Shown here piece by piece: positions 306-15,596 of a stretch of 64,000 bases of DNA. Within the stretch, counting starts at the first letter, position 1; every line of letters begins with the position of its first letter. A model generated the notes under the pieces. That model did no database searches and was not told where the DNA came from. It was given only the letters and a program-made list of their open reading frames with translations. Source of the stretch: an uncultured Acidobacteriia bacterium (GTDB taxonomy: Bacteria > Acidobacteriota > Terriglobia > Bryobacterales > Bryobacteraceae); NCBI GenBank assembly GCA_903907865.1, contig CAIVPR010000185.1:1-64000 (forward strand), given 5' to 3'. A program made the position numbers and the translations under genes.

Positions 306-424
306 GGCCACATAATTCAACAAAACCAATACCACCCACCCCCCGCCATCCCGAACCACCCTTCCGCCAACCCCAACAAAACAAGCCAAATATAATCCAA
401 AAAACTTGTGACCGCGTCCGTGTG

Positions 425-438
425 GGGCATTTTTGCCC
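425..438. repeat. GTGTGGGGCA-type hairpin repeat, short copy
   Basis: GGGCA-TTTT-TGCCC follows GTGT, giving a 5-bp stem with a four-base loop. The same lead-in precedes the longer double-hairpin copies near 2612, 5011, 9476 and 10199. Confidence 0.45.
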
Positions 439-600
439 TGCCATGGCGCAACTCGGTGCCGGACTTAGCCAGGACAATCTGCGCCTTTTGATAAGGCCCT
501 GGTCATGGCTTTCAGCCGCATCATGCGCCGCGAGGCGCAGGCCTTCCTCTTCCTCCTCCGATCTCCAGCTCGCTTTCGTGGTGCACCCACTCCTGCGCGC

Positions 601-624
601 CGCGTCGAGAATCCTCTCGACGCG
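601..624. repeat. AATCCT-loop palindromic repeat, copy 1
   Basis: This is a perfect 9-bp stem, CGCGTCGAG against CTCGACGCG, around the loop AATCCT. A second copy at 2552-2573 has the same loop, but its stem has a G-C pair flipped to C-G, so pairing is kept. Confidence 0.55.
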
Positions 625-733
625 TGTTCCCATCTACGCCACTGTCTTTGTGGCAAGCATTGCATTGGTTCCAACGCTCTCCGTTGTATCTTCCAACGTT
701 TTCCGCTATCATCACAACTGGGGATACGCCACA

Positions 734-1225
734 ATGCCCACCATCACCGATTCCACAACCACCACGGAACGCCCAGCCGCCCTCAATCCTGCACCCCTGG
801 TCGCCAACCCGCTCGCCCTGATCCCCGGCCCCACATGGAATTCATTCGAGCAGTTCCGTCTCAAGGGCGGCGGCGCTTTGGAGGAAATCTCCCGCCATCA
901 GGTTGCGACCCTCCGCTCGAAGGCGGGCACTTTCCGAATCCTGCGCGACGAGGACTTTCAGTCCATTCTCGGCTTGGCCTCGGAAGTCCATCGCCTCAAA
1001 GGCGGCCTCAAGCTGATTCTTACAGCCGCCCGGGTCTACTCCAAATTCCGCGACGAGGAGCATAAGGACCTACTTATGGAGGCGGTTTCCGTCCTTGCCG
1101 GGCTCCCGGTCCTGCCGGAGCGGGCGGGGCACGCAGGATTCGAAATCACCTCGGATGAACAGGCATACTCGGAGTCGGACGATTTCGACTTGGCTTCCGC
1201 CCGGATTCCCAGGCCGGAACTATAG
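734..1225 (+). CDS. Hypothetical protein, 163 aa, first of three unknown genes facing the DISARM-like operon
   Basis: The product is not recognised. I start it at the ATG at 734 because the frame further upstream crosses the hairpin repeats and has no protein-like character. The N-terminus is Thr/Pro-rich. The middle, about residues 35-130, is a helix-rich region with many Leu, Arg and Glu. The C-terminus is acidic. There is no signal peptide or membrane segment. The stop is followed after 9 bases by the ATG of the next gene on the same strand, so the two are probably co-transcribed. The cluster converges on the methyltransferase gene of the defence operon. A role linked to that island is possible only by position. 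Confidence 0.6.
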   Translation: MPTITDSTTTTERPAALNPAPLVANPLALIPGPTWNSFEQFRLKGGGALEEISRHQVATLRSKAGTFRILRDEDFQSILGLASEVHRLKGGLKLILTAARVYSKFRDEEHKDLLMEAVSVLAGLPVLPERAGHAGFEITSDEQAYSESDDFDLASARIPRPEL

Positions 1226-1234
1226 CAACTACGT

Positions 1235-1891
1235 ATGCCGAATTCACCGTTGGCTTCTCTGGAACGCGAACTCCGCACCCTCTCCCACAGCGAGGACGCC
1301 ATCCGCGTAGTCCAAACATTCTCCGCAAGCCTCGGCAAGACCAAAATAAGGCTAGACACTTTCAATCAGACGAACGCTTTGGTACGCCGCCCGGTTGACC
1401 CAGTCGAAGCTGCCGCGTTTGGCTTCGACACTGACGAAGACAAGTTTGTGCTTCTCCAAGGCGACATCGTCACTACGGACTGTGCCTACTTCCTCGGAGA
1501 ACGCGTCACCGGCAGCCCGCTCTACGCCGTCTTGAACTCGTCGTGCGACCTCGTTCCGAACCGCAAGCGCTACGCATCCCTGCTTCGCATTTCGCAACTG
1601 AGACGCTCCGAGGCTTTGGCCCTCGAAAAGCTCGGGGTCCTTCTGAAATTCAGCCGCCGTGACTCGATGTACCTGCCGTCCCTGCCCCGGGACGCCGACG
1701 ATGTGGTTGCCAATGCCATCCAGTTCGATGGCGTCTGCCAGATTGAGAGCGCGGACTTGATGCTGGCAACTAGGATCGCGTCGCTGTCTCTTGTAGGGTG
1801 GCGCATCTTCGGGGCCATCACTCGGTCGGTCTATGCGAGGGCAAATCCAAGGGAGATCGAGTTCCGCGCCCGGATTGAATCTGAACCATAA
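1235..1891 (+). CDS. Hypothetical protein, 218 aa, with a QGDI...SSCDL pattern
   Basis: The family is not recognised. Near residues 70-110 there is a beta-rich stretch containing QGDIVTTDCAYFLGE and then LNSSCDLVPNR. This pattern of a Gly-Asp turn followed by a conserved Cys-Asp resembles uncharacterised small proteins sometimes found beside defence genes, but I cannot name the family. The protein is soluble, with no signal peptide or membrane helix. It sits 9 bases after the preceding gene and 28 bases before the next, all on the plus strand, which suggests a three-gene operon. Codon use is like the neighbours. Confidence 0.65.
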   Translation: MPNSPLASLERELRTLSHSEDAIRVVQTFSASLGKTKIRLDTFNQTNALVRRPVDPVEAAAFGFDTDEDKFVLLQGDIVTTDCAYFLGERVTGSPLYAVLNSSCDLVPNRKRYASLLRISQLRRSEALALEKLGVLLKFSRRDSMYLPSLPRDADDVVANAIQFDGVCQIESADLMLATRIASLSLVGWRIFGAITRSVYARANPREIEFRARIESEP

Positions 1892-1919
1892 CGGAAGCCC
1901 TTCTGGAGAAGGACCTGCG

Positions 1920-2476
1920 ATGACACTCGAACAACGCAAAGCCACATTCCAACTCATCAAGAAACCGCGCCCGGCGCTCCCGTTTGAAGACCGTTCCTTC
2001 GACACGCCCAGCCAGGCGACGCTCTTTCCCATGGAGGAACCCGACCTGCTCATCTTCCTCTACTTCCCATTCGTTACTGCGGAGGAGTTTACCCGGACCC
2101 TCGAACTTGCCCGCCCCGCAGCAGTCCTCAAGTTGCGCCGCTCCCGCGCTTCGACTTCGGCCACCTCAACCGCCAGCAGGTCTTTCGCATCTTCGACGCG
2201 ATCCATTCCACCTATTACGACCTGGGCCCCATGGAATCCTCTGCGGACCGGTATGCCTCCGACCCTGTACAACTGGTCGGTGCTTTCCTGCGCTCTGCCG
2301 GCACTCCGCCAAAAGGTCCCGTCTTGATTCTGTTGAACCAAAAAGGCCTCGAACTCGACGACTCCATCCCTGCCGACATCACCGGCTTGTTCGCCACAGC
2401 GTCCAACCACCCATGGAGAACCTACACCGTACTGGATTCCCGGACACGGGAAGCTATAGCTGTTTCCTCCGCCTAG
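1920..2476 (+). pseudogene. Hypothetical gene split by one frameshift
   Basis: The 5' part starts at the ATG at 1920, with GGAGAAGG just upstream. It reads well to about 2130 (DLLIFLYFPFVTAEEFTRTL). The sensible reading then moves to another frame, giving PRFDFGHLNRQQVFRIFDAI and a well-behaved protein to the TAG at 2476. The total length of 557 bases is one short of a multiple of three, so one lost base between about 2130 and 2150 explains it. Joined, the product is about 185 aa, soluble and alpha/beta in character, with a hydrophobic strand (VLILLNQKGLEL) near the C-terminus. No known family is recognised. It may be a decayed gene or a sequencing error. Confidence 0.6.
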
Positions 2477-2532
2477 ACCATTTCCTGTCTACTGCAGACC
2501 CCAAATCTTCGGAGCTTGCGCCGACCCGTGGC

Positions 2533-2573
2533 GCACGCAATCTTGCGTGCCGCGTCGACAATCCTGTCGACGC
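2533..2573. repeat. AATCCT-loop repeat, copy 2, with a second hairpin
   Basis: Two adjacent perfect hairpins are present: GCACGCAA-TC-TTGCGTGC at 2533-2550 and GCGTCGAC-AATCCT-GTCGACGC at 2552-2573. The flanks (GTGG before, TGTTC after) match copy 1 near 600. Confidence 0.6.
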
Positions 2574-2611
2574 CTGTTCTTCGTTTGCTTGCGACTCCAC
2601 TGGAGTGTAGG

Positions 2612-2675: not shown

Positions 2676-5600
2676 CTAGTCCGCCGCCACCTCGAACAAC
2701 TCACCGTTCTCCCCACCCTTCGTCCCCGCCCGCCGCGGCTTCTTCGCCTTCCCCGCAGCCGCCACCCTTTCCGCCGCCGCCCGCCGATGGTTTTCCTCCA
2801 GCAGCCGTCGCAGCAGTTCCTTCCGCGCCGCCGCCGACACGGTAAACCGCACCCGGTCGTGTTCCGCCAGCGTTTCCACCTCGTGGAAGTCGTGGCCCAG
2901 CTCCAGGTCCCGCCATCCGTACGCGTCCCGCACCGCCCTGTCCAGCTCGACATGCAATCGGCGCAGTTCCAGCAACCCCGCGTACCCCCGCACGGCCTCC
3001 TCCATCGGCTTCTTTGACACCTTCGCGACCTTCGCCGCCCCCAGGTCCCGTGCGTGGAACAGATTGTAGATGTCCGTCAGCCCCAGCCACAGCGACAGCA
3101 TCAGCCGCTTCCGGTGCTCGTGGTACCGCTCCCCCAGTGCCGCAAGGTCCGGGTTCGCCGTCTGCCACATCCCTTCGGGAAACGCGAACGTGTCGAAACA
3201 GTCCGACGGCGAGTACCGTAGCCTCGTCTCCAGCGCCCCGCTGTACTTGCGCGCCCAAACTTCGTGCACCGTCGACTGCACCACCGCGAACAGGTCCCAC
3301 CGGTCGGTTGTGAAAACCTTCAGAGTCTTCAGAAAAACAAAGTTTGTCGGGACGCGCGAGAATGACAGATACTTTGTCGTTACGGAACACACAAAGCAGT
3401 AGTTGTATTTCGCCAACTGTGCCCACATCTCTATGCGGGGTCGATAGAATTGCCACCAGCGTGCGGTGGCGTCCGGATCGCGCTGTCGCTCTCGCTCGGC
3501 CTTGACCAGCTTCTCGACTCGGTCAATTGCCGTCCTGTAGTAGGATGCGCGCTCCAAGGACCAGTCGCGGAAGTTGATGATTGACCTTCCCGGCGCTAGA
3601 TTAGGAGCATTGTTTACTTCCTGCCCGTTCAGGGCTGGATAGATCACTTCGATACACTGAGGCTCTTCAGCCTCAATCCTAGCTGCCTCGTCATGCGTAA
3701 GGAGGAAACCGTCGCCGAGGAAGTCAATTCCCTGGAAGACGAACTCAGTGCACTCTCGAAGAGAATATACTTGAGCGCTAGCTGCTTCTGGCTCAAAGAA
3801 GGCGTTTATCGTCGGCACGCCGTGACCGTCCAGTTCCTTCCTACCACCCCAAGGGCCGCTATGAATCGCAATGAGGCACACGACCAACTTCGCTCTGCCC
3901 GGCCACCGAACGCCGCGGACAACCATATTGATCTCTCCGCCCCTTGAGATCACCTGATCGAGTCCGTCCCGTTGCACGCCGCCGTCTTTGATTGAGTTTG
4001 TCGTGATCAGGGCGGTGAAGGCGTTCGGTTTTAACAGCGAGGAAATCCGTTGAAGGAAGTACGCAACGATGTCGTTGAGACCTGCCGGGGCGTACTGCCA
4101 CTTGACATATCCGCAGAACGAATGGCCGTACTCACCACTCAAGCTCCCACCAAAATATGGTGGATTCCCCAGCACGCAGTCAAATCCGCCCGGCGCCACG
4201 ATATCCGGGAACTCCAAAAACCAATGGAAGAATCGCTTCTCCCGTGCCGTTGCCAACGCCATGGCTGTCTGCGACCCGTGCGGCAACAAACCATCCACCC
4301 AATACCGCCGGAACTGCGCGTCCGTCATCAGGTACGGGTCGTTCTCCGGCGTCTTCGGAATATAGAACTGCGCGATTGGCAGCGCCGCAATCGTCTCCAG
4401 CCGGTCCGTGTCCACACTCGCCGAAAACGCCAGGAACCGTTCCTTCTTGCGCTCGATCTCCTCCGGCGTCCGTTCCGGCAGCGCAGAGAGCGCCGTCCAC
4501 TCCTCCAACCGTCCATCCAACCGCTTTTGCATCGGAGCGGAAAGCCGCAACTGCCGTGTGTCCGCCCTGTCCCGCTTGTTGTCGTTCCGCCACTTTGCCG
4601 CCAGTTCCTTGTCATCCCCGGGCATGGTTGCGAACGCCTCGTTCGGGATCCCCTTGTCCAGTTCCTCCTGCCGCACAAAGCCGACAATCGCGTTCCCGCA
4701 CTTGATGTGGTGGTCGAGGAAATTCAGCGGCTGTCCCGGATTGTGCGCCTCCAGCCACAGCGCAACCTTGCACAGTTCCACCGCCAGCGGATTCAAGTCC
4801 ACCCCGTAGATGCAGTTCCGGATCACATCCCGCAGCGCCGCCCGGAACGCCGGTGGCGAGGGCTGGTCCTCACCCGTCCGCACCGAGGCCAACTCCGTAG
4901 CGATCCGCCGCGCCGCCGCCAACAGAATATGCCCCGATCCGCAAGCAATATCCGCCACCCGCAACCCCAGCAGCGCCTTCTCTGCCAAACTCTGCGAGCC
5001 CCCTCTGTTGTGGGGCAGGATGGCATCCTGCGACCGGGTCGCCGACACGGTCACGCGACCAGAGGTCGCGCTCCCTTCCTTACCCGCCTCCACCTTACCC
5101 GCCCCCAAACAATCCGCAATCAAATAATCCAACGAATGCCGGATCAGCGGCTGCACCAAATCATCCGGCGTATAGTGCGACCCCGTGGCCGCCCGCTCCC
5201 CGCCCTTCGCAAACCCGAAATCCACCTGCCCCTGAACCGTCGTGAACACAGCCCGGTATTCCAGCAGCCCCTCGTAGACAGACCCGAACTCCTCCACATT
5301 CAGCGCCGCGTAGTTCACCCGGATCAGACCCGTCCCCGGATGCTCGTAAAGACTCAACGCCCTCAGGCATCCCAGCAGCACATCGTTCCCCAACATGCAG
5401 CCCGAGATCCTGTCCAGCGCCAGAGGGCCGAACAAGTCCCCGCCCAGCGGAGCCAAACCCAGCTTCGCCCCCGTACCCCCGTCCGGCCCCAGACCGTCGA
5501 ACAGCCGGAACGTCGAAAGCAGCCCGATCCACAAGTCATGGTGGCGCGCATCGGCCAGATACCTGTGTTCCGCCAGCAGCCGCAGCCGCTGCACGCTGTA

Positions 5601-6551
5601 GTAGCGCCGGTAGATCTCCCGCTGCTTGGCGGGAACATCCGTCGGAAATACCAAGTCCCGCTCCTCGATCACCATCAGAAACAGCAACCGGTAAATCAAC
5701 CGCAACAGATTCTGGTAGTACTTTTCGGGCCGGACCGTGCCGTCCGCGACCGCCTCCCGCAATGCCCCGTTCGCCGGATGCGCCAGGAATCCGTTCCCGA
5801 AATCCCGGATTGCCTTTTCCACCGCCTTGCTCAGGCCCTCGCGGATCCGCGCCCCGGAGTCCAGCGAATCCTGGTGGTACCGCTCGATCCAGCTCTCTTT
5901 GGCCGTCTCGTTGCTGGAAGGCAGCCGCGTTGCGTGCAGCAACCGGTAAAGAATCGCGAAATCGGCATAGAGCCCGTCCGTGAAGATCCGGTCGAGGTCG
6001 AACTCCAGGTAGCTCAGCTTCACCAGCCGCGAACTGTCCCGCAGCAGCCGGAGCACCCGCCCGTTGGTCACGATTCCATACAACTGCTCGGTCAGGTTGA
6101 TGTATTCCTGTACCACCGCGTGCGCGGACATGCGGACGGTCGCATTTTCCGGTCGCTTGTCCAAGCCCGCCGGTTCCCGGTAGCCGACGATCTGGATCGG
6201 AGTCTGCGAACGGTTCACCGCCCGGTGCGAAATCGCGTAGAGCTTCCCGTTCAGTTCCTCGGACCGCGCTTGGAACTCCGTCTGGTAGCCCAGCACCGAA
6301 AGCAGCGGCACCACCCACTGCTGCCGCGTCTCCGACGTCGCGGGCGACTCCGTCCGCAGTCCATCCAGCTTCCGTTTGAAGATCCGCCAGTAGTCCTGTG
6401 CATCGGCCCATGCGCGGGCAATTTCGTCCTTCACCTTCGTGGAGGCGGGGAGTCCGAAATCCGCCGGCTTCTGACCCGGCTTGTACTCCATCTGCCCCAG
6501 GAAGTCGGGCGAGAGGATCGATCCCTCGATGCGGATGCCGGGATAGGTCAC
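2676..6551 (-). CDS. Eco57I/PglX-like adenine-specific DNA methyltransferase, DISARM class 1 DrmMI-like
   Basis: The 1291-aa product is the size of PglX/DrmMI-type N6-adenine methyltransferases. The SAM motif DIACGSGH is at about residues 534-541 and the catalytic NPPY at 796-799. The N-terminal 450 residues form the helical region usual in this family, and the C-terminal 500 would hold target recognition. The start is GTG and overlaps the stop of the SNF2 helicase gene upstream (GTGA), so the two are translationally coupled. About residues 486-520 come from a hairpin repeat absorbed in frame just before the SAM motif. Bases 3300-4100, coding for the part after NPPY, are AT-richer than the rest, which would fit exchange of the specificity domain. 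In DISARM the methylase marks self DNA; that role is inferred here. Confidence 0.85.
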   Translation of the reverse strand: MTYPGIRIEGSILSPDFLGQMEYKPGQKPADFGLPASTKVKDEIARAWADAQDYWRIFKRKLDGLRTESPATSETRQQWVVPLLSVLGYQTEFQARSEELNGKLYAISHRAVNRSQTPIQIVGYREPAGLDKRPENATVRMSAHAVVQEYINLTEQLYGIVTNGRVLRLLRDSSRLVKLSYLEFDLDRIFTDGLYADFAILYRLLHATRLPSSNETAKESWIERYHQDSLDSGARIREGLSKAVEKAIRDFGNGFLAHPANGALREAVADGTVRPEKYYQNLLRLIYRLLFLMVIEERDLVFPTDVPAKQREIYRRYYSVQRLRLLAEHRYLADARHHDLWIGLLSTFRLFDGLGPDGGTGAKLGLAPLGGDLFGPLALDRISGCMLGNDVLLGCLRALSLYEHPGTGLIRVNYAALNVEEFGSVYEGLLEYRAVFTTVQGQVDFGFAKGGERAATGSHYTPDDLVQPLIRHSLDYLIADCLGAGKVEAGKEGSATSGRVTVSATRSQDAILPHNRGGSQSLAEKALLGLRVADIACGSGHILLAAARRIATELASVRTGEDQPSPPAFRAALRDVIRNCIYGVDLNPLAVELCKVALWLEAHNPGQPLNFLDHHIKCGNAIVGFVRQEELDKGIPNEAFATMPGDDKELAAKWRNDNKRDRADTRQLRLSAPMQKRLDGRLEEWTALSALPERTPEEIERKKERFLAFSASVDTDRLETIAALPIAQFYIPKTPENDPYLMTDAQFRRYWVDGLLPHGSQTAMALATAREKRFFHWFLEFPDIVAPGGFDCVLGNPPYFGGSLSGEYGHSFCGYVKWQYAPAGLNDIVAYFLQRISSLLKPNAFTALITTNSIKDGGVQRDGLDQVISRGGEINMVVRGVRWPGRAKLVVCLIAIHSGPWGGRKELDGHGVPTINAFFEPEAASAQVYSLRECTEFVFQGIDFLGDGFLLTHDEAARIEAEEPQCIEVIYPALNGQEVNNAPNLAPGRSIINFRDWSLERASYYRTAIDRVEKLVKAERERQRDPDATARWWQFYRPRIEMWAQLAKYNYCFVCSVTTKYLSFSRVPTNFVFLKTLKVFTTDRWDLFAVVQSTVHEVWARKYSGALETRLRYSPSDCFDTFAFPEGMWQTANPDLAALGERYHEHRKRLMLSLWLGLTDIYNLFHARDLGAAKVAKVSKKPMEEAVRGYAGLLELRRLHVELDRAVRDAYGWRDLELGHDFHEVETLAEHDRVRFTVSAAARKELLRRLLEENHRRAAAERVAAAGKAKKPRRAGTKGGENGELFEVAAD
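5011..5070. repeat. Hairpin repeat copy lying inside the methyltransferase gene
   Basis: TGTGGGGCAGGAT leads into GCAGGAT-GGC-ATCCTGC (5015-5031), GCGACC-G-GGTCGC (5030-5042) and CGCGACC-AGA-GGTCGCG (5054-5070). The lead-in and the GCGACC stem match the intergenic copy at 2612-2647. The reading frame stays open through it. Confidence 0.6.
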
Positions 6552-9427
6552 GCCGTCCCCCCTTCGGGCAGCAGTACGTAAATCCCCAACAGATCCATCG
6601 GCAGCACCGGATAGACTACTTGGAAACGGCCCCGGTCGATCAGTGCGCTGAAGCGCTCATGTGCCGCCACCAAGCGTTTGGACTGCTGTTCGGCCAACAC
6701 CGTGAATTCGGGTTCCAGCGACTTCCGCAATCCCAATTCATTCTCCAGAAAGGCCGCTCGGGATTCCGGCGAAAGGTCGCTCGACGCCCGAGCCTTTGCC
6801 AGCAACGTCTTCGCCGCCGGATGGTCCAGGAATTCGCGTTGTGATGGCGCGCCCCGCCATCCCCACAGCAGCATCTCCTCCGCCACAATCTGGTGCCCGT
6901 GCTTCCGCTCGATCACATTCCGGCAGCGGAAGAGCAGCAGCGTCGTTTTCGTCCCCACGTCGCGGGTTCGGATCACCGCCGCCCTTGCCGCCCGCCGCCC
7001 CTGTCGGTTGAGCGTGTTGGCCATTACCAGTTGGCAAAGCTGCTCCACGAACCGGTGGTTCCGTCCCAGGTATTGGTAACCCTCCGGCGTCGGGGATTCG
7101 AAACTCACCTTCACCACCCCGCCAGTACCGGTGGGCAGCAGATCTGTCAGTTGCGCTGGCAGGTTGGCCCGGACAATGCCGAACCCCTTCCGTTCCTGGA
7201 TCACCTGCACGCCCAACAAATTGCTCAGAACGGAGGTCACAAACTCGCGCACCGCCCCCGGATCGCCGATGGCCTCGTCCACCCCGCGCAGATCCTCCTC
7301 GATCTCCTGCGCCTTGATCGCATGCTGGGCGAAAATGCTCCGCGAGGCCTGTTCCCGCTGGAACGCCTCCTCCACCTTGCGCGTAATCCGGGTTCGCGCC
7401 GTGGCCGCCTCGTCGGACCGGGTGAAGTCGAACAGCATCTGCTGCGGCTCGGGTGCCTGTTTTCGCTCGATCCGGCGCGTCGGATTCAGCAGGAGCGCAT
7501 GGGTAATCGTGTCGATGATACTTTGGGAATCTTCCGGGAAGGGCACGTTGATCCCGGTCGTCCGTTTGATCTCCCGCACCTTCCGCAGCAGCACGTCGAG
7601 TACGATGCCGTCAATGGGATTGTCCCCGTAGAGCAGGCACGCCTTCACTTCGCTGGCCTGCTGGCCGAAGCGGTCCACGCGGCCCTCGCGCTGTTCCAGC
7701 CGGTTGGGGTTCCACGGTAGGTCGTAGTGCAGCACGCCGGTGAACAGGTCCTGCAGGTTGATGCCTTCGCTCAGGCAATCGGTCGCCACTAGAATGCGGG
7801 GACGGTCGCCCGCCATTTCTCCGATCCGCTGGCGGCGAACCTCGTCGGGCTCCTCGCTTGTCACCACCCGCAGTTCCAATTTAGGGAACCGCTTGCACAG
7901 CTCGGGCCCGAGGTGCTCCCCAAGATAATTGGCCGTCTCAATGTAGCGGCAAAACACCACAGGCTGGATTCCCTTTTCCAGCCACTCGTCCAGCACGATG
8001 GAGGCCCCCAGCAGTTTGCCGTCCTGCTCGATTCCAGAAAGCCCTTCGAGCCGCCGTGCGAATGCCCGGAGTTCGTGCCTCTGTTGTTCGGACCAATCCG
8101 CCTGTTCCAGCACCTGGGTTGGTGTGTTGTCGGCGTCCACGCCGTAGTCGAAGTCTTTCACCGGATTCTCGGTCGAAAGGTCCGTGCCGTCACCGGAGAT
8201 GCCTACAGACTCCTCTCCCAGCCGCGCCCGTCTGGCGTCGAGCATCTGGATTCCCGCGCCGGGACTGGACATCACGCCCCGTAGCAGCGCCAGCGCGGTC
8301 CAATACTGCACCCGCTTCTTCTTTTTTCCTGTCGGGTCGGGTGCCACCAGCTTGCGCGCGAACTCAAGGATGTCGTCGAAAAACTCCTGGTATGCGGGCC
8401 GCAGGTCGTACGCAAGCTCGAACGAATCCCGGAACGGGAACACCGTCGTGTCGTCCATCCACTTGTGGACTTCAGCCCTCTTGCGCTGGATGAAGTGGCG
8501 GGCAAGCTCGCGGCGCTGCGGCTGGGTGGCGTTGGGAAGGTCGAGTTTTTCGAATTCCGGGTTCAACAGCCCCAGCAGGGACTGGAACTCCTCCGGCTTC
8601 CCACTGTGGGGCGTGGCGGTCAGCAGCACCAGATGCTGCTCTGGCTTGGCCGCGATCCGGCTCACAAGGTGGTATCGCTGCTGTTGTGCCGCGGAAGCCC
8701 CGGTCGGACGTGCGCAGGTGTGCGTCTCGTCCACCACCACCAGTTCCGGGCACTGTTGCACGAATACGTCGCGGCGCGTGTCGGATTTGATGAAGTCGAT
8801 CGAGATGATCTGGTAGGGGTAATAGTCGTAGACGCTGGCATCGCCTTGGATTTCGCGGTCCAGGCGCGCCTGGGTGTTGGACCGGATGACCACCGCTTCG
8901 ATGTCGAGCTTGGACCGGATTTCCTCCTGCCACTGGTCGCAAAGGTGCGGCAGGCAGACCACGGCGAACCGCCGGATCGTCCGGCGTTCCAACATCTCCC
9001 GGATGATGAGCAGGGCTTCGATGGTTTTGCCAACGCCCACGTCGTCTGCGATCAACAACCGCACCGGTTCCGGTTCCTGCCGGAGTGCCATCACCAGCGG
9101 CACCATCTGGTAGGCGCGTGGGCGGAACGAAAGTTTCGCCAGTGAGCGGAACGGTCCGGCTCCGTTGCGGAACGCCAGCCGCGCCGAGTCATAGAGCAGC
9201 CGGGCCGTGGAGAAGTCGCCCAGGTCCGCTGGTCCCGGTGGCGCGAACTCCGCATCCGTGGGCCGGTCCGCGTAGATCTCCAAGGGAAGGTAAACCGCCG
9301 TGGTTTCGGCCTCCGAGCCGCCAAGGGGCCGCACTACCAACAGGTTTTCCGGGTCGTCCGACGGCAGCACCACCCACTCCCGGCCACGCAGGGAGACAAG
9401 CTTTCCGGGTTGGAACAAAGTACTCAT
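6548..9427 (-). CDS. SNF2-like helicase, DISARM DrmD-like
   Basis: The 959-aa product is a complete SNF2/RapA-type superfamily 2 ATPase. It shows DDVGVGKT with the Walker lysine at residue 134, DETH at 233-236, a TATPHSG motif III, and C-terminal motifs ATDCLSEGINLQ and QREGRVDRFGQ. The N-terminus (PGKLVSLRGREWVVLPS) and the GPFRSL...PRAYQMVPL lead-in are what I associate with the SNF2 helicases paired with DrmMI in class 1 DISARM. It overlaps the methyltransferase start by four bases, so the pair is one translational unit. The gene starts at an ATG at 9427. DNA translocation on invading DNA is inferred from the family. Confidence 0.85.
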   Translation of the reverse strand: MSTLFQPGKLVSLRGREWVVLPSDDPENLLVVRPLGGSEAETTAVYLPLEIYADRPTDAEFAPPGPADLGDFSTARLLYDSARLAFRNGAGPFRSLAKLSFRPRAYQMVPLVMALRQEPEPVRLLIADDVGVGKTIEALLIIREMLERRTIRRFAVVCLPHLCDQWQEEIRSKLDIEAVVIRSNTQARLDREIQGDASVYDYYPYQIISIDFIKSDTRRDVFVQQCPELVVVDETHTCARPTGASAAQQQRYHLVSRIAAKPEQHLVLLTATPHSGKPEEFQSLLGLLNPEFEKLDLPNATQPQRRELARHFIQRKRAEVHKWMDDTTVFPFRDSFELAYDLRPAYQEFFDDILEFARKLVAPDPTGKKKKRVQYWTALALLRGVMSSPGAGIQMLDARRARLGEESVGISGDGTDLSTENPVKDFDYGVDADNTPTQVLEQADWSEQQRHELRAFARRLEGLSGIEQDGKLLGASIVLDEWLEKGIQPVVFCRYIETANYLGEHLGPELCKRFPKLELRVVTSEEPDEVRRQRIGEMAGDRPRILVATDCLSEGINLQDLFTGVLHYDLPWNPNRLEQREGRVDRFGQQASEVKACLLYGDNPIDGIVLDVLLRKVREIKRTTGINVPFPEDSQSIIDTITHALLLNPTRRIERKQAPEPQQMLFDFTRSDEAATARTRITRKVEEAFQREQASRSIFAQHAIKAQEIEEDLRGVDEAIGDPGAVREFVTSVLSNLLGVQVIQERKGFGIVRANLPAQLTDLLPTGTGGVVKVSFESPTPEGYQYLGRNHRFVEQLCQLVMANTLNRQGRRAARAAVIRTRDVGTKTTLLLFRCRNVIERKHGHQIVAEEMLLWGWRGAPSQREFLDHPAAKTLLAKARASSDLSPESRAAFLENELGLRKSLEPEFTVLAEQQSKRLVAAHERFSALIDRGRFQVVYPVLPMDLLGIYVLLPEGGTA

Positions 9428-9475
9428 CTCTCGCTGGTCCTACCTGATCCCAAGGTTACAGCCCGCAAGAGCATG

Positions 9476-9520
9476 TGGGGCAGCCATTCTTGGCTGCAGC
9501 CGCCTTTCAGGCGGCTATAA
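9476..9520. repeat. Double-hairpin repeat copy between drmD-like and higA
   Basis: TGTGGG leads into GCAGCCA-TTCT-TGGCTGC (9480-9497) and AGCCGCCT-TTC-AGGCGGCT (9498-9516), followed by ATAAC. The first stem is identical to the copy at 2612. There is no U-tract, so it is not an obvious intrinsic terminator. Confidence 0.65.
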
Positions 9521-9552
9521 CTGCCCTCTCCGGTCCCAGCCAAGCTCCAATC

Positions 9553-9858
9553 CTAAGCCGCTACTACATCCCGGGGCTGTACTGACCGCTCAATCGCCTG
9601 CAAAATCTCCTGCCGGGCAACCCGCAGCTCATAGTCGGCTTGCAGCCGCATCCAGAACTCGGCCGAAGTGCCCAGATGTCGAGCCAGCCGCAGCGCCAAG
9701 TCCGCCGTAATAGTCCGCCGGCCGCAAACTACTTCGTTCAGCCGCCCCGCTTCCACGTCAAGGGCCTTCGAAAGGTCCAACACGGTCATCCCCAAAGGGG
9801 CCAGAAAATCCTCTTGAATGATTTCGCCCGGATGAATGGGGGGAAGCATATTGCTCAT
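9553..9858 (-). CDS. higA: HigA-family antitoxin (XRE-type HTH)
   Basis: The 101-aa protein opens with IHPGEIIQEDFLAPLGM, the signature of the HigA/VapI family of addiction-module antitoxins. A helix-turn-helix follows (TVLDLSKALDVEAGRLNEVV, then TADLALRLARHLGTSAEFW). It is expected to bind HigB and repress its own operon. It lies 15 bases downstream of the toxin gene on the same strand, in the toxin-first order typical of higBA. It sits inside the DISARM-like cluster between two helicase genes, bounded by hairpin repeats on both sides. Confidence 0.92.
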   Translation of the reverse strand: MSNMLPPIHPGEIIQEDFLAPLGMTVLDLSKALDVEAGRLNEVVCGRRTITADLALRLARHLGTSAEFWMRLQADYELRVARQEILQAIERSVQPRDVVAA

Positions 9859-9873
9859 GGAGTCTTGCCTCTC

Positions 9874-10152
9874 TTAATGGTAGTCGACAATCTCAACCTC
9901 CAAGGCATCGCCTTCCGCCCACACGAAGCACACCCGGTACTGGTCGTTGATCCGGATGCTGTGTTGGCCCGCGCGATTACCCTTCAGAGCCTCCAGCCGA
10001 TTCCCGGGAAGCGCGGCAAGGTCCCGGAGTGAGTCCGCCTGGTCAAGCTGTACCAGTTTCCGTCGGGCAACCCGTTCAATCGCCTGAAATCGTCGGGTTG
10101 GTTGGTCATGGAAGAGCTTTTCTGTTTCCCCATCACCAAAAGACCGAATCAC
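9874..10152 (-). CDS. higB: HigB-family mRNA interferase toxin (RelE superfamily)
   Basis: The 92-aa product begins MIRSFGDGETEKLF, the usual HigB opening. It ends with HSIRINDQYRVCFVW followed by a short acidic strand, as in plasmid-maintenance killer proteins. The start is GTG. HigB proteins cut mRNA in a ribosome-dependent way and are neutralised by HigA, whose gene follows. Both toxin and antitoxin look full length and intact, unlike the other small toxin-antitoxin remnants in this window. Its place inside the helicase and methylase cluster suggests it could act as a dead-man switch or as an abortive arm of the island. That is inference. Confidence 0.92.
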   Translation of the reverse strand: MIRSFGDGETEKLFHDQPTRRFQAIERVARRKLVQLDQADSLRDLAALPGNRLEALKGNRAGQHSIRINDQYRVCFVWAEGDALEVEIVDYH

Positions 10153-10198
10153 CCTACCAGTCTACTCCCGGACTGTACGTTCCGGCTCCGCCGCTCTG

Positions 10199-10260
10199 TG
10201 TGGGGCAGGCATTCTTGCCGGCATTCTTGCCTGCAGCCGCCTGTCCAGGCGGCCATAACC
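10199..10260. repeat. Hairpin repeat copy between higB and the large helicase gene
   Basis: TGTGGGGCAGGC is followed by a duplicated GGCATTCTTGCC unit and then GCCGCCT-GTCC-AGGCGGC (10236-10253) and CATAACC. This is the same family as 2612 and 9480, with an expanded first hairpin. Confidence 0.6.
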
Positions 10261-10290
10261 GAGCGTCCCAAAGCGCCAGCCCGCCAATCC

Positions 10291-13200
10291 CTATTTCACC
10301 TTCCGAAAAACATCCGGTCGTCGCGCCACCCGCTCCGCCAGATTCTCGCGGTAATGCCAAGCCCAAACTTCATCGCCCCGCGCGATCAACAACTGCCGCT
10401 GCGCCTCATCCCGTTCCCGCGTCGCCCTTTGGTCATGCGGCGACCCGTCGCAGAAAACCCAAAAGCGCGGCTCATAGTAGAAGTCCGGCTGGCAATATAT
10501 CCCGTCCACCCGTTTCTGGGCCTCATCCGGCAACCGCAGCCCATTTGCATGCAGGTACTCGATGAAGACCCGCTCGGTGGAGGAGTTGGGATCCAAGCGT
10601 TCCAGCAACACTCTGTAGTGTTCCTCGTAGTCCCGGTACTCCCGGTTGCTTCGGTCTTCCACCGTGCATACCGCCAACTTCTCCAGCGCGCCACGGATCA
10701 GCCTTCGGTCGATCGCCGGATGGTCGCGCTGGTTGTAATAGCTCAGCAAGTCATCGTACGACGCTGGAGCCTTGTAATCGGTCTCCGCAAACCGGCAAAC
10801 CTCCGCTGCGCGGGCAACCACCCGGCGGAAGATCTCCAGGTTCTCGATGAACTGGGAGAGAATCCCGAGGCTCCCCTCCGCCGCCTCAAAAATCAGTATG
10901 TTCGGCGCCCCCCGTTCCCCCATCGCGAAAACGCCAACCTCGTTGGGCTCTACTTGGAACTCGGTTTCGATGGCCCGCTTCAAAGCGTATTGCAGCGTAA
11001 CCACGCCTTCCCGTTTCAAACCAAGCGCGACAATGGGCTCGATGTACAGGGCATCGGCCACCGTCGACGTGAACAGCTTCACCAGTCCGAATTCCTCCCG
11101 TGCGTTCGCAAGGTCCTCCGGCACCTTGCTGTGCCAGACACCTGAGGTCATTCCCATCGGGAATCCTTCCGCTCGTTGCGAACTCCATTTCTTGTTGACA
11201 TGGTGAAGCCGCGCGGCAGGTAGGAACCTGAGTCGCAACAGCTCGCTCCCGCTGGATTTCGCCACCGCCTCCCGGATGCCGCCCGCAGCCGCAACCCCGC
11301 CGTCCACCGCAAAGTATGTCGCCACATCGTAGCCGCTCGAAATCCGCTCCTCTTCCTCGCACGAGATCCTGTCGACCTCTTCCGCCCGCGATTCCGACAT
11401 CTCCAGCAGCCTGTCGAACTGCTCCTTGCTTGCAGTGTCAGCCAAACTGGCATCGGAAAATGGGCACTTCTCCAAGTCCCGTTCGATTCCCCAGAGGAAA
11501 TAGCCCGACTTCTTGCTTACTTTGGCACTCACTACGGATGCCTCCGTGTCCTGCACAACGATCTGTGAGACCCGGTACTTGTTTCCGTTGTAGTAGATGA
11601 GGTTCCTTGGTCCAAATTCGCGCAGCGCCAAAGCCCTCGGGCGCGAGATGAATTCCCCCCCGGTCTCGGAAGTCTGCAGGAACACCCGCAGCGGAAGCCG
11701 CGTGAAGTTGTATCCCGGCAGGAAACCCTCCGAAGCGAGGTATCGGTAGGGGTAGAACTCGGATCGCTCCGTGCCCCCGGCCCCAACCTCATTCCGCAGC
11801 AGGTTCAACTGGCGATGCGCTTGGTCCTGCTGCCTTTTCTGCAGCTTGTACTCATTGCTCCCCACAATCAACAACCCGCTGTCCAACGCTTGGTTTGCCC
11901 TCGATAGCAGCGTTCTTGCCGACCGGTACAAGTTCCGCCATCGCTTCATCGAATCGTCCAAGTGCTCGGCCAACTGATCCAGATTCTGCTCGATCCATTC
12001 CTCCGAATACCACCTCGCCTGGCTCTCCAGTTTGGGCTGGAAATCCTGAATCGCTTTCTGGAAGGTGACACGAATCTGTATCCGGGTCTCCTCTGGAATT
12101 CGCAGGCCATCCCGAACCGACCCTGCCAAGGGCATGCCGGGTTGCTCCTCCACCACCAAGCACTTCAGCGAGGCCTGCTGCCCGGGCTGCGTTTCCAGCC
12201 CCGGAAGTCCGATTTCGCTGATCGCCAATGCATTCAAATGGGTTACCAGAAGTTCCCGGTTGCAAAGGTCGAGCCTCGCGGCCTGCACTTCACCGGCCAC
12301 CAGTTCCGCCTGGTGCTGGAAGTAGTGACGGTCATGCGGCGAATAGCTGGAGCAGTACGTGAAGACCAACGCACCCTGCCCACTCCTGCCCGCCCGGCCC
12401 GAGCGCTGGGCATAGTTGGACGGATTGGGCGGGGCATTCCGCATATGGACTACGGATAGGCCGCCGATGTCGATTCCAAGCTCCATCGTTGGAGTGCAAA
12501 ACAGCGCGCTGATCGACTTTTCCCGGATGTCGGCTTCACTTCCCCAATCCGCCCGGAAACGGTCTTCACGATCCGCCCGGTCCTCCGTTTTCACGTAGCC
12601 CGTGTGGTCCTCGGCCCGCAACCGCTTCGGTGGATCGAAGGTGCGGTAGACATCTCGGAAGAACGCGTTGGGCTTTGGCGGGTTGTCCTTGTAGGAACGG
12701 CGCTTCACAACGTCCTGCCGAACAGTCTCGCCGTCTCCAAGGCACCACAAAATTCGATCAATCTGCAATCTGTAAACCGGTACCTGTCCGCCGGTTTCTC
12801 CCCGGGCGGTCAGTCTTACAAGGAAGCCCTCTCCGGTCAGTCTTTCCATCACCTCTGAGATGAAATCCCGATACCGGTCGCCCCGGATGTCGTTCAGGTC
12901 GCATCCCTGTTTCTTCGCGAATTGCTTCAGGAACTTACCCAGCGCGCTAGCAGGGCCAAGACTCTTGGACGCTAGTTTGGCAGACTTGTGGAGGGGATCG
13001 AACCGGATCACACAAGGCTCCTTCAGGTGTTCCGAGGATTCCAGTGTCCATGGTTCCTTCAGCCTCTCCCGGAATTGGCTCTCGGCCTCCTTCAGCCGCG
13101 ATGGTGTCAGGAAGTTCTCGCTGTGCAATGCGAACTCAAGTCGGAAGAACTCGAGAACAGCCTCCAGCAATTCAAGTCTTGCAGCCCCATCCAATCCGTC

Positions 13201-15468
13201 CAGCACAGGCACGCCAGCCCATAGCGGATTCGAAGCGGCGGCCTCCTCAAGGTACTGGTAGCGAATCCGCAGCAGACCGCACTGCTCCAAGTTAGGCAGA
13301 ACGATGCGCCAGCTGCGGCGAAGATCCTCGACAGCTCGATAGAACAAATAGGAATGCAGGATCCGTTCCCAATCGCGTCGGATTGCTGCCACCGTAGGGA
13401 CTTGTGCTGCATTCTTCGCAAACTCCAGAAACGGCAAATCGAGCGCCTTGAAAACCGCTTCGCCGATCACTGCATAGTTCAGCACCCCGTTTGGCGCTGT
13501 CCTGAGTGCTCTGTGGACTGCGGAACGCAACTGCACCACTTGGACAAAGTCGTTGAAGTGTCCGGCCTGTAGGGCCGCGTCCTGCACGTTGTCCGTGAAG
13601 CTCAAGACCTTCTGGTCCTGTAGTCGATAGCGGGCTTGGTCTAAGCGCTTGAGAACGGAAAACACCGTGATCGTCGTCGACGTGCTCCGTCCTTCACTTC
13701 CCAGCTTCGTCAGCTTGACGCTCTCGCTGGTCTTGGCATCAAAGAAGGCTCCGCCGGTCGGATCAAACAGGAGAGGTGCCGACATGAACCAGCCCCACTG
13801 CGGGTACCCTGAGGACTCGGCCTCCGAATACTTCCCGAGTTCATTGAACCAGACCTTGCGGGGGAACCGGTGTTTCTTCTCCGGACTGGGGCCGACGCCC
13901 CGTTTCTTTGTGCGGCTAATCCAAGCTTCCGGAAGAAGCTCCAGATCTTCCTCGGGATTCCAAACCTCGCCACCCACTATCAGGTAACCGTTGATCCTCG
14001 GCTCGTCCTCGTCCTCATCCTCGCTCGAACTGGCTCGGAACTCCCTCGGCTGCAATTTCCCGTCGCGAAGGGTCACACAGAGGAAAGGATGCCCGCTTGC
14101 CCGGCTGAACACGTTTGGATAGATCGGCTTTTGGCTTTCGTCGTCCTGCTTGTATATTCCCGGTTCAAGGGTGATGAATCGCTTCCCCGGTTCCTGATCC
14201 AGCGTCGTGTAGACGGAACCGGTTTGTGAAATGAACTGGTGGAGTTTGAACGGCAGTATGGTGTACCGCGAACCCCCGTCCATCAAGCCTTTGTTCACGC
14301 TGCTGATCCACAACAGCAGGTCCGAAAGTGCACTCCTGCATTCCTCCTCGGGAGCGGTCGATGCCTCCCTGAGCGCGGCTACGACTTCGGGCACGGACTT
14401 GGGTCTCCGTCTAACGAGAACCCCATCGCGTTCCTCCAATGCGATCTGGTTCTCCATCCATACCGCAACTGGATGGGATCGAAGCGCCGCCTCGGAGGCC
14501 CGAACATCGATGGAGTTTCGAATTGCTCCGGCCAAGGCCAACTGGTCTGGTAAGGCTCCGGACGGCTCCAACGACCGAACGAGTCTTTCCTGCACCACCT
14601 GTTCCGCTCCGAACTGCTTTCCAAACATGGCCGACGCCACCGCGGCCACCTTTTCGCGTTGGTCCTGCAGCGTCCCGCCTGAAACCATCGTGGCTGAAGT
14701 TCCAATGCAGACCACGGGTTGCGCGCAGCGGGCCCGAATCCGTCGAATCAGTATCCCGACATCGGCCCCCTGCCGGCCCCGGTATGTGTGCAATTCGTCG
14801 AACACCAGAAACCGAAGGTTGGCGTAGATGGCGTCCCGGATGCTCCGCTCGTGGATTCTTGTCAGCAGCAGCTCCAACATCATGTAGTTCGTCAGGAGGA
14901 TCTGCGGCGGGTTCTCCCGCATTGCCTTCCGCTTGGTGTCGTCCTCCTGTCCCGTATACTGGCCAACCGTGATCGGAAATGCTTGTCCCGTCACGCTCTC
15001 ATAGTTCTTGCGGTAGTTGTTGAACTCGTTGGTCTGTGAGTTGATCAGCGCGTTCATCGGGTATACGATTACGGCAGTTCCACCGCGCCCACTCGGATTC
15101 CGCAACAGATGGTCGAAGATCGTTGCCATGTACGTCAACGACTTGCCCGACCCGGTTCCGGAAGTGACAATGAAATCAGTTCCGGCAGCACCCAGCCCGA
15201 TTGCCTGCCGCTGGTGCGTGTAGAGCGAATAGCCTTTGAAGATGGCGGCCATGGAGGTGTGTAGGACGCCACTGTCCACCATCGACTGGACACTCCCCTG
15301 CCGCTCGTAGGCCGGGTTGAACTGGAGTAGTGGGGCTGGCCAAAGCTTCCCGCGTTCCAATTCCGCAGCCACCACGTCGGCAATCATCGGGTCGGAAATG
15401 TCGATGAAGCTCTCGATGTAGCTCTTATAGTCGCCAACAATCTCCGAGTGTGTCGCGAATACGTTCAT
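10291..15468 (-). CDS. DUF1998-type DEAD/DEAH helicase with nuclease-like C-terminus (DrmA/DrmB or DruE analogue)
   Basis: I choose the ATG at 15468 because MNVF followed by a DYKSYIESF segment is a natural family start; the frame extends to 15525. The product is about 1725 aa. It has a Walker A SGTGSGKS (Lys near 109), DELH at about 224-227, and [12 protein letters not shown] near 1020. A DUF1998-like region follows with [11 protein letters not shown]. The last 90 residues contain QPDFYY then VFCDGSPHD and a basic helix, a pattern of Vsr/DUF559-type PD-(D/E)XK nucleases. In DISARM, DrmA (helicase) and DrmB (DUF1998) are separate, and DrmC carries a PLD nuclease; in Druantia, DruE is one large DUF1998 helicase. 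This protein combines such parts. No drmC is present. Confidence 0.85.
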
Positions 15469-15596
15469 CCTGCCCTCAATGCCGCCCAAAATCCAGTGAC
15501 GCTTCCGATTCTCCCACGTGGCCACCGTTCGGGCCCATTCGGGTCCTCACGCGGGCATCTGCTGAAACGTCCCTATTCTCCGGTCCCGGACAAACC

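Follow-up and report, generated by a model that had tools for sequence, protein, structure and literature searches.

The window analysed here is a stretch of 64,000 nucleotides (contig CAIVPR010000185.1, assembly GCA_903907865.1) from an uncultured Acidobacteriia bacterium. On its minus strand it carries genes for a large DUF1998 helicase, an SNF2 helicase and a methylase. These genes very probably represent an operon of the ARMADA Type I family (armC-armA-armB) from a separate monophyletic branch, whose large helicase ArmC lost, most simply in a single event, three predicted cysteine zinc clusters and kept the helicase, the canopy and a putative Vsr-like nuclease.

The trio itself has already been described, and the branch lacking the cysteine clusters is the new part. 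Bell et al. (bioRxiv, September 2025; PMC12458937) named the trio ARMADA and its helicase-first order Type I. The name is also used in PMC13192584 and PMC12904381. The original prediction had proposed a hybrid or so far unnamed type of DISARM/Druantia defence. The hybrid likeness to both systems stood, but it corresponds to ARMADA Type I, because the same trio and the helicase-first order are described in PMC12458937. The proposal of an unnamed type was thus superseded for the trio, while the preprint text examined does not describe the branch without cysteine clusters. The features of Type I that could be compared were found in the window, although the evidence is weak for the Vsr-type nuclease that the preprint places at the C-terminal end of the Type I YprA homologue. 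Cysteine zinc-binding modules, including the DUF1998 cluster, are absent from the window. As the preprint describes these modules for the family but not as a defining feature of Type I, the window is treated as a variant within Type I despite their absence.

The trio was also surveyed in other genomes. From the genome scan the best 80 of at least 552 matches were taken, which lean toward the branch of the window, so that the shares given here are not to be read as prevalence. Among the 87 aligned loci with full ArmC, 31 were incomplete and 56 contained all three genes. The order helicase-SNF2-methylase on one strand was observed in 44 of these 56: all 22 complete loci from the branch of the window and 22 of the 34 from the other, canonical branch. 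The remaining loci showed SNF2-methylase-helicase (10), methylase-helicase-SNF2 (1) or mixed strands (1), and some loci have extra genes inside the trio. Within the phylum, 15 of 396 genomes, its own genome counted, matched the large helicase at E <= 7e-213 (G064 and G344 partially only). Because of these matches and the recurrence of the trio elsewhere, the arrangement reflects more than chance.

The three large proteins were assigned using the profile sets of PADLOC 2.0.0 and NCBIfam 20.0. For ArmC the top PADLOC profile was DruE (237 bits, in pieces); DpdJ gave 77 bits and the best DrmA profile 38 bits. The DruE of Escherichia coli ATCC 8739 reached 2,179 bits with the same DruE profile. 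ArmA was matched end to end by the DpdE profile (601 bits), ahead of DrmD (265 bits) and BrxHII (163 bits), and ArmB by the DrmMI profile (658 bits). No ARMADA model was present among the NCBIfam matches of the window proteins; both profile sets score the trio just as separate DruE, DpdE/DrmD, DrmMI or PglX matches. When a profile was built from 55 canonical Type I ArmC proteins with the window left out, the window protein obtained 1,662 bits, the E. coli Type II ArmC 397 and the Druantia III DruE 295. With this profile and in the trees described below, the window protein falls closest to Type I ArmC, and Type II ArmC and DruE, each represented by one row, are more distant. The motifs of ArmC (Walker A GTGSGKS, DELH, QRSGRAGR) are intact, as are ACGSGH and NPPY of ArmB and the Walker motifs of ArmA.

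The scores of ArmA with DrmD and of ArmB with DrmMI would also fit a class 1 DISARM variant with fused drmA-drmB and lost drmC, and ARMADA is known to share the SNF2 helicase and the methylase with DISARM (PMC12458937). This alternative is nevertheless very unlikely: the large helicase scores far lower with DrmA than with DruE, the NCBIfam DrmD model gives ArmA 293 bits, below its cutoff of 610, and no match to DrmB or DrmC was found among the window ORFs (open reading frames) tested with the PADLOC profiles. Moreover, the published YprA tree already sets ARMADA with Druantia and away from DrmA (PMC12458937). Ten other ORFs of the window, HigA included, gave no PADLOC match, and no match to DruH was obtained in the window. 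Membership in DISARM and in Druantia was therefore rejected on profile scores and absent partners. The proposal that one large DUF1998 helicase stands in place of drmA and drmB agrees with the DEAD, Helicase_C and partial MZB matches in ArmC. For drmC, which had been thought to be replaced as well, no similar gene was found among the ORFs tested; however, drmC is not simply missing, as the helicase itself carries a putative Vsr-like nuclease domain at its C-terminus.

Three predicted zinc clusters are formed by nine alignment columns, corresponding to amino acids 455, 458, 569, 572, 1318, 1321, 1338, 1570 and 1573 of the window protein, none of which is a cysteine there. For the comparison, ArmC was extracted from the window and from 102 of 104 loci (all but L047 and L048, which lack it), giving 103 proteins; 15 were dropped (<=1,450 amino acids or an in-frame stop), 88 were kept and two E. 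coli rows (L138, ATCC 8739) were added, yielding 90 rows. Of the nine cysteines, 24 rows had none, 9 had one, 56 had all and one had seven; the window is among the 33 rows with none or one, which make up its branch. The complete set was found in 54 of the 55 other Type I rows, in the E. coli Type II ArmC and in the Druantia III DruE; the remaining canonical row (L124), with seven, is cut off before the last two columns. Counted over the whole protein, CxxC motifs were absent from 26 of the 33 branch members, with one in six and two in one, whereas each of the 55 canonical rows has 4 to 8. The Pfam model MZB (MrfA zinc-binding) aligned over positions 1-69 of 80 in the window (24.4 bits, just over the cutoff of 24.2), up to position 65 in the branch member L056 and over 1-80 in three canonical proteins; the window reads ASYDDLLSY instead of a cysteine-bearing stretch.

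The former cluster positions carry fixed replacements in the branch, with S455, S/T458 and D569 in 33 of 33 rows and D1573 in 30 of 33, and nearly all branch rows retain the neighbours of these positions, for example F454, R456, G459, A1569, Y1571 and N1579-Q1580. Since the replacements are conserved and the catalytic motifs intact, these observations point to one ancient rewiring of the clusters and not to decay. Judged by the residues present, the branch proteins would bind no zinc, although other ligands are possible. Loss is the simpler direction of change because both outgroup rows hold all nine cysteines.

The ArmC trees were built without 23 cysteine-rich columns. FastTree with all 90 ArmC rows separated the 33-row branch (support 0.999) from the 55 canonical rows (1.0), and IQ-TREE with 40 of the 90 rows gave SH-aLRT (Shimodaira-Hasegawa-like approximate likelihood ratio test) values of 100 for the branch and 98 for the canonical group. 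The same split was obtained for ArmA (23 and 30 rows, 0.993 and 0.997). According to the record titles, the 33 members come from 11 phyla and the candidate division KSB1, and two Burkholderiaceae plasmids are also among them.

The preprint describes the DUF1998 cysteines as a hallmark of the whole family, and the YprA defence helicases as rich in zinc modules (PMC12458937). The absence of the cysteines might accordingly mark a helicase that is degenerating into a pseudogene, or one that has turned into a repair enzyme and no longer serves defence, and parts of ArmC can indeed erode, as a few canonical rows, for example L135, have lost nuclease residues. We consider decay of this kind very unlikely, given that 33 rows bearing 12 phylum-level labels share the loss, that their replacements are fixed, the neighbouring residues conserved and the catalytic motifs intact, and that the operon order is maintained in every complete locus of the branch.

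Structure models were compared with known folds using Foldseek. The model of ArmC amino acids 1060-1725 (pLDDT, predicted local distance difference test, 84.5) matched MrfA (6znp, E 1.5e-8) and DrmAB (E 1.2e-3), and together with the MZB match these hits identify the OB-CON-DUF1998 canopy in ArmC. The nuclease columns PDF, DG, H and D are conserved and intact at the C-terminus. The same model matched the nuclease I-Bth0305I, which has a Vsr-like fold, with a probability of 0.99 but a non-significant E-value of 0.09, and LuxS chains rank above this hit. The ten-residue blocks at the former clusters were modelled with a pLDDT of 86-92.

Several observations weigh against the assignment to a separate Type I branch with this domain content. 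The nuclease fold match is weak by its E-value. BrxA-like, beta-barrel and MarR-like domains are placed between the RecA folds of ArmC in PMC12458937, and the model of the region where they are expected (amino acids 255-990, pLDDT 87.5) gave no significant match in the PDB. Cysteine-bearing relatives were part of the alignments behind the models and may have lent them confidence where the clusters used to be. In the published text examined, no experiment on any Type I system was found; defence is reported there for the E. coli Type II system only, as direct and non-abortive (PMC12458937). The ArmB tree does not recover the split. The root of the ArmC tree is formed by one Type II and one DruE row, long branches that meet and were flagged as a risk by IQ-TREE, and that fall inside neither group. 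Finally, most branch members are metagenome bins whose phylum labels may be in error.

Judged by their families, ArmB probably marks self DNA through adenine methylation, while ArmA would translocate and ArmC would unwind and cleave. For the window we infer this division of labour in a defence function. ArmB would methylate adenines at host sites and thereby mark self, while ArmA, an SNF2 translocase, and ArmC would load on unmarked or replicating phage DNA. ArmC, a superfamily 2 (SF2) helicase, would move 3'-5' by analogy with MrfA and DruE, and its nuclease would cut the phage DNA while the cell survives. The canopy would continue to clamp DNA, with side-chain packing taking over from metal in holding it together.

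Transcription in the window runs from the large helicase over a HigBA pair to the SNF2 helicase and the methylase (Table 1). The coordinates, the architecture and the four-base overlap of the SNF2 helicase and methylase ORFs given in the original prediction were reproduced when the ORFs were re-checked. The longest frame of armC opens at the GTG at 15525 (1,744 amino acids), but the alignment with relatives begins at the Met at 15468; this Met is therefore the likely start and supports the length of 1,725 amino acids. The HigBA pair, the nuclease-like C-terminal domain and the missing cysteine clusters do not appear in the original prediction.

Table 1. Features of the ARMADA-like operon in window coordinates.
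Feature	Position	Strand	Description
armC	10291..15468	-	YprA/DruE-like SF2 helicase (1725 aa) that opens the operon; DEAD + Helicase_C
DUF1998/MZB region of ArmC, aa 1492-1580	10729..10995	-	without cysteine cluster
Vsr/PD-(D/E)xK-like nuclease domain at ArmC C-terminus, aa 1640-1725	10294..10551	-	
higB	9874..10152	-	RelE-like toxin of the HigBA pair; PF05015 58 bits
higA	9553..9858	-	HigBA antitoxin; TIGR02607 105.6 bits, cutoff 47.7
armA	6548..9427	-	SNF2/RapA (BrxHII/DrmD)-like helicase, 959 aa; SNF2-rel_dom + Helicase_C
armB	2676..6551	-	PglX/DrmMI-like adenine methylase, 1291 aa; Eco57I, MmeI_Mtase, MmeI_TRD

HigA and HigB are clear members of their families. A role of the pair as a working part of the system was considered, for example as a RelE-like arm akin to the RelE-like domain that Type II ArmD carries (PMC12458937), as HigB is RelE-like, relatives of the pair lie upstream of armC in L083 on the other strand, and other toxin-antitoxin pairs occur inside the loci L134 and L135. 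However, L083 was the only one of 104 loci matched by HigA and HigB (tblastn), and not between armC and armA, while nine relatives of the branch (L033, L053, L056, L057, L068, L083, L085, L132, L133) show a one-base overlap of their armC and armA matches. A working role is hence improbable, and HigBA as a conserved part of the system was not supported; in the simplest reading the pair is probably a local insertion. The annotated armC and armA genes of L132 and L133 overlap by four bases.

Further genes were observed in other loci. On the two Burkholderiaceae plasmids, armB ends 17 bases inside a gene with an SMC or DUF2326 annotation (L132 24318-26288, L133 24312-26282); the one of L132 gave no Pfam match. 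Between armA and armB, members of the branch carry related SLFN_AlbA_2-type genes (L053 18034-19578, L054 18163-19830), a gene for a PLD-like protein (L071 18712-19842) or for an SMC/AAA-like ATPase (L074 18120-21167). In two canonical loci from the same phylum, an ORF of 686-690 amino acids with unassigned family separates armC from armA (L042 7943-10003, L044 8067-10139). A DruE-like ORF of 1,055 amino acids was found on a 7.1-kb contig (L046 138-3305, G000:C163; DruE3 profile 413 bits), where the genome match of the large helicase counts one internal stop. In L047 (G000:C44:1-18000) an Hma defence system is encoded on the minus strand, with an HmaA-like helicase (6093-9650, 1,726 bits) and an HmaB-like methylase (52-2433, 957 bits).

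A dispersed, hairpin-rich repeat has a copy inside armB that keeps the reading frame (window 5004-5070, approximately amino acids 494-516); 42 matches to the repeat were obtained in the genome with 40 of 126 candidates scored, so perhaps more exist. The copy sits in a variable linker just N-terminal of the S-adenosylmethionine-binding motif; this linker is shorter in L056, L068 and L132, and longer also in L033 and L063. Elsewhere in the genome, 239 bases (G000:C44:185301-185539; L002, L048) share 95% identity with window 2922-3160 and fall in a fragment with 66% identity to ArmB amino acids 1087-1210, which by its similarity appears to be a relic or an exchange of the C-terminal part of the methylase. 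Plus-strand ORFs facing armB at window 422-2610 gave no Pfam or PADLOC match; around 1920-2476 their frame seems shifted, judged by eye, and a gene at this place could be disrupted.

DruE has four zinc clusters, built from cysteine pairs and lying next to the DNA channel, which are thought to shape the DNA-engaged state (PMC13192584). As a large natural branch of YprA defence helicases has no such cysteines, a comparison of related ArmC proteins that have or lack the clusters could test the role of zinc directly. Tentatively, and with somewhat less than even expectation, we propose that the branch forms an ARMADA subtype of its own, with a zinc-independent helicase at its core. One ancestral swap of three metal clusters for conserved Ser/Thr/Asp sites would have produced a canopy with DNA-recognition or control behaviour of its own, useful for example under zinc limitation or oxidative stress, which then would have spread across a dozen groups of phylum level in the company of a matching ArmA.

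Compared to known systems, the window shares with class 1 DISARM the DrmD-like SNF2 helicase and the DrmMI-like methylase; however, it does not contain the DISARM set of DrmA, separate DrmB and PLD nuclease DrmC, lacking a DrmA-like main helicase and, among the ORFs tested, the two others. Druantia III contains DruE, a YprA-family helicase with a DUF1998 module and the top PADLOC profile for the window helicase, but the set of DruE with a PLD end and DruH was not found in the window, and DruE ends in a PLD and not in a Vsr nuclease (PMC12458937). In Dpd, DpdJ likewise lost the DUF1998 cysteines, the only such loss reported in the examined text of PMC12458937, and DpdE names the top profile of the window SNF2 helicase; the window helicase, in contrast, scores with DpdJ well below DruE. 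ARMADA Type II (E. coli ATCC 8739, L138) has a homologous SNF2 helicase, methylase and YprA helicase, but in the order SNF2-methylase-YprA followed by ArmD, a UvrD/GajB-like helicase, and with all nine cysteines. The window does not follow this order and gave no match to E. coli ArmD, with 2.6 kb visible downstream of armB, as the contig of this 7.5 Mb genome starts at window base 1. With ARMADA Type I the window has in common the same three genes, the helicase-first order and a DUF1998 helicase with a C-terminal, here putative, Vsr-like nuclease (PMC12458937); it differs by belonging to a branch without the three predicted zinc clusters, the DUF1998 cluster included, and by the inserted HigBA pair.

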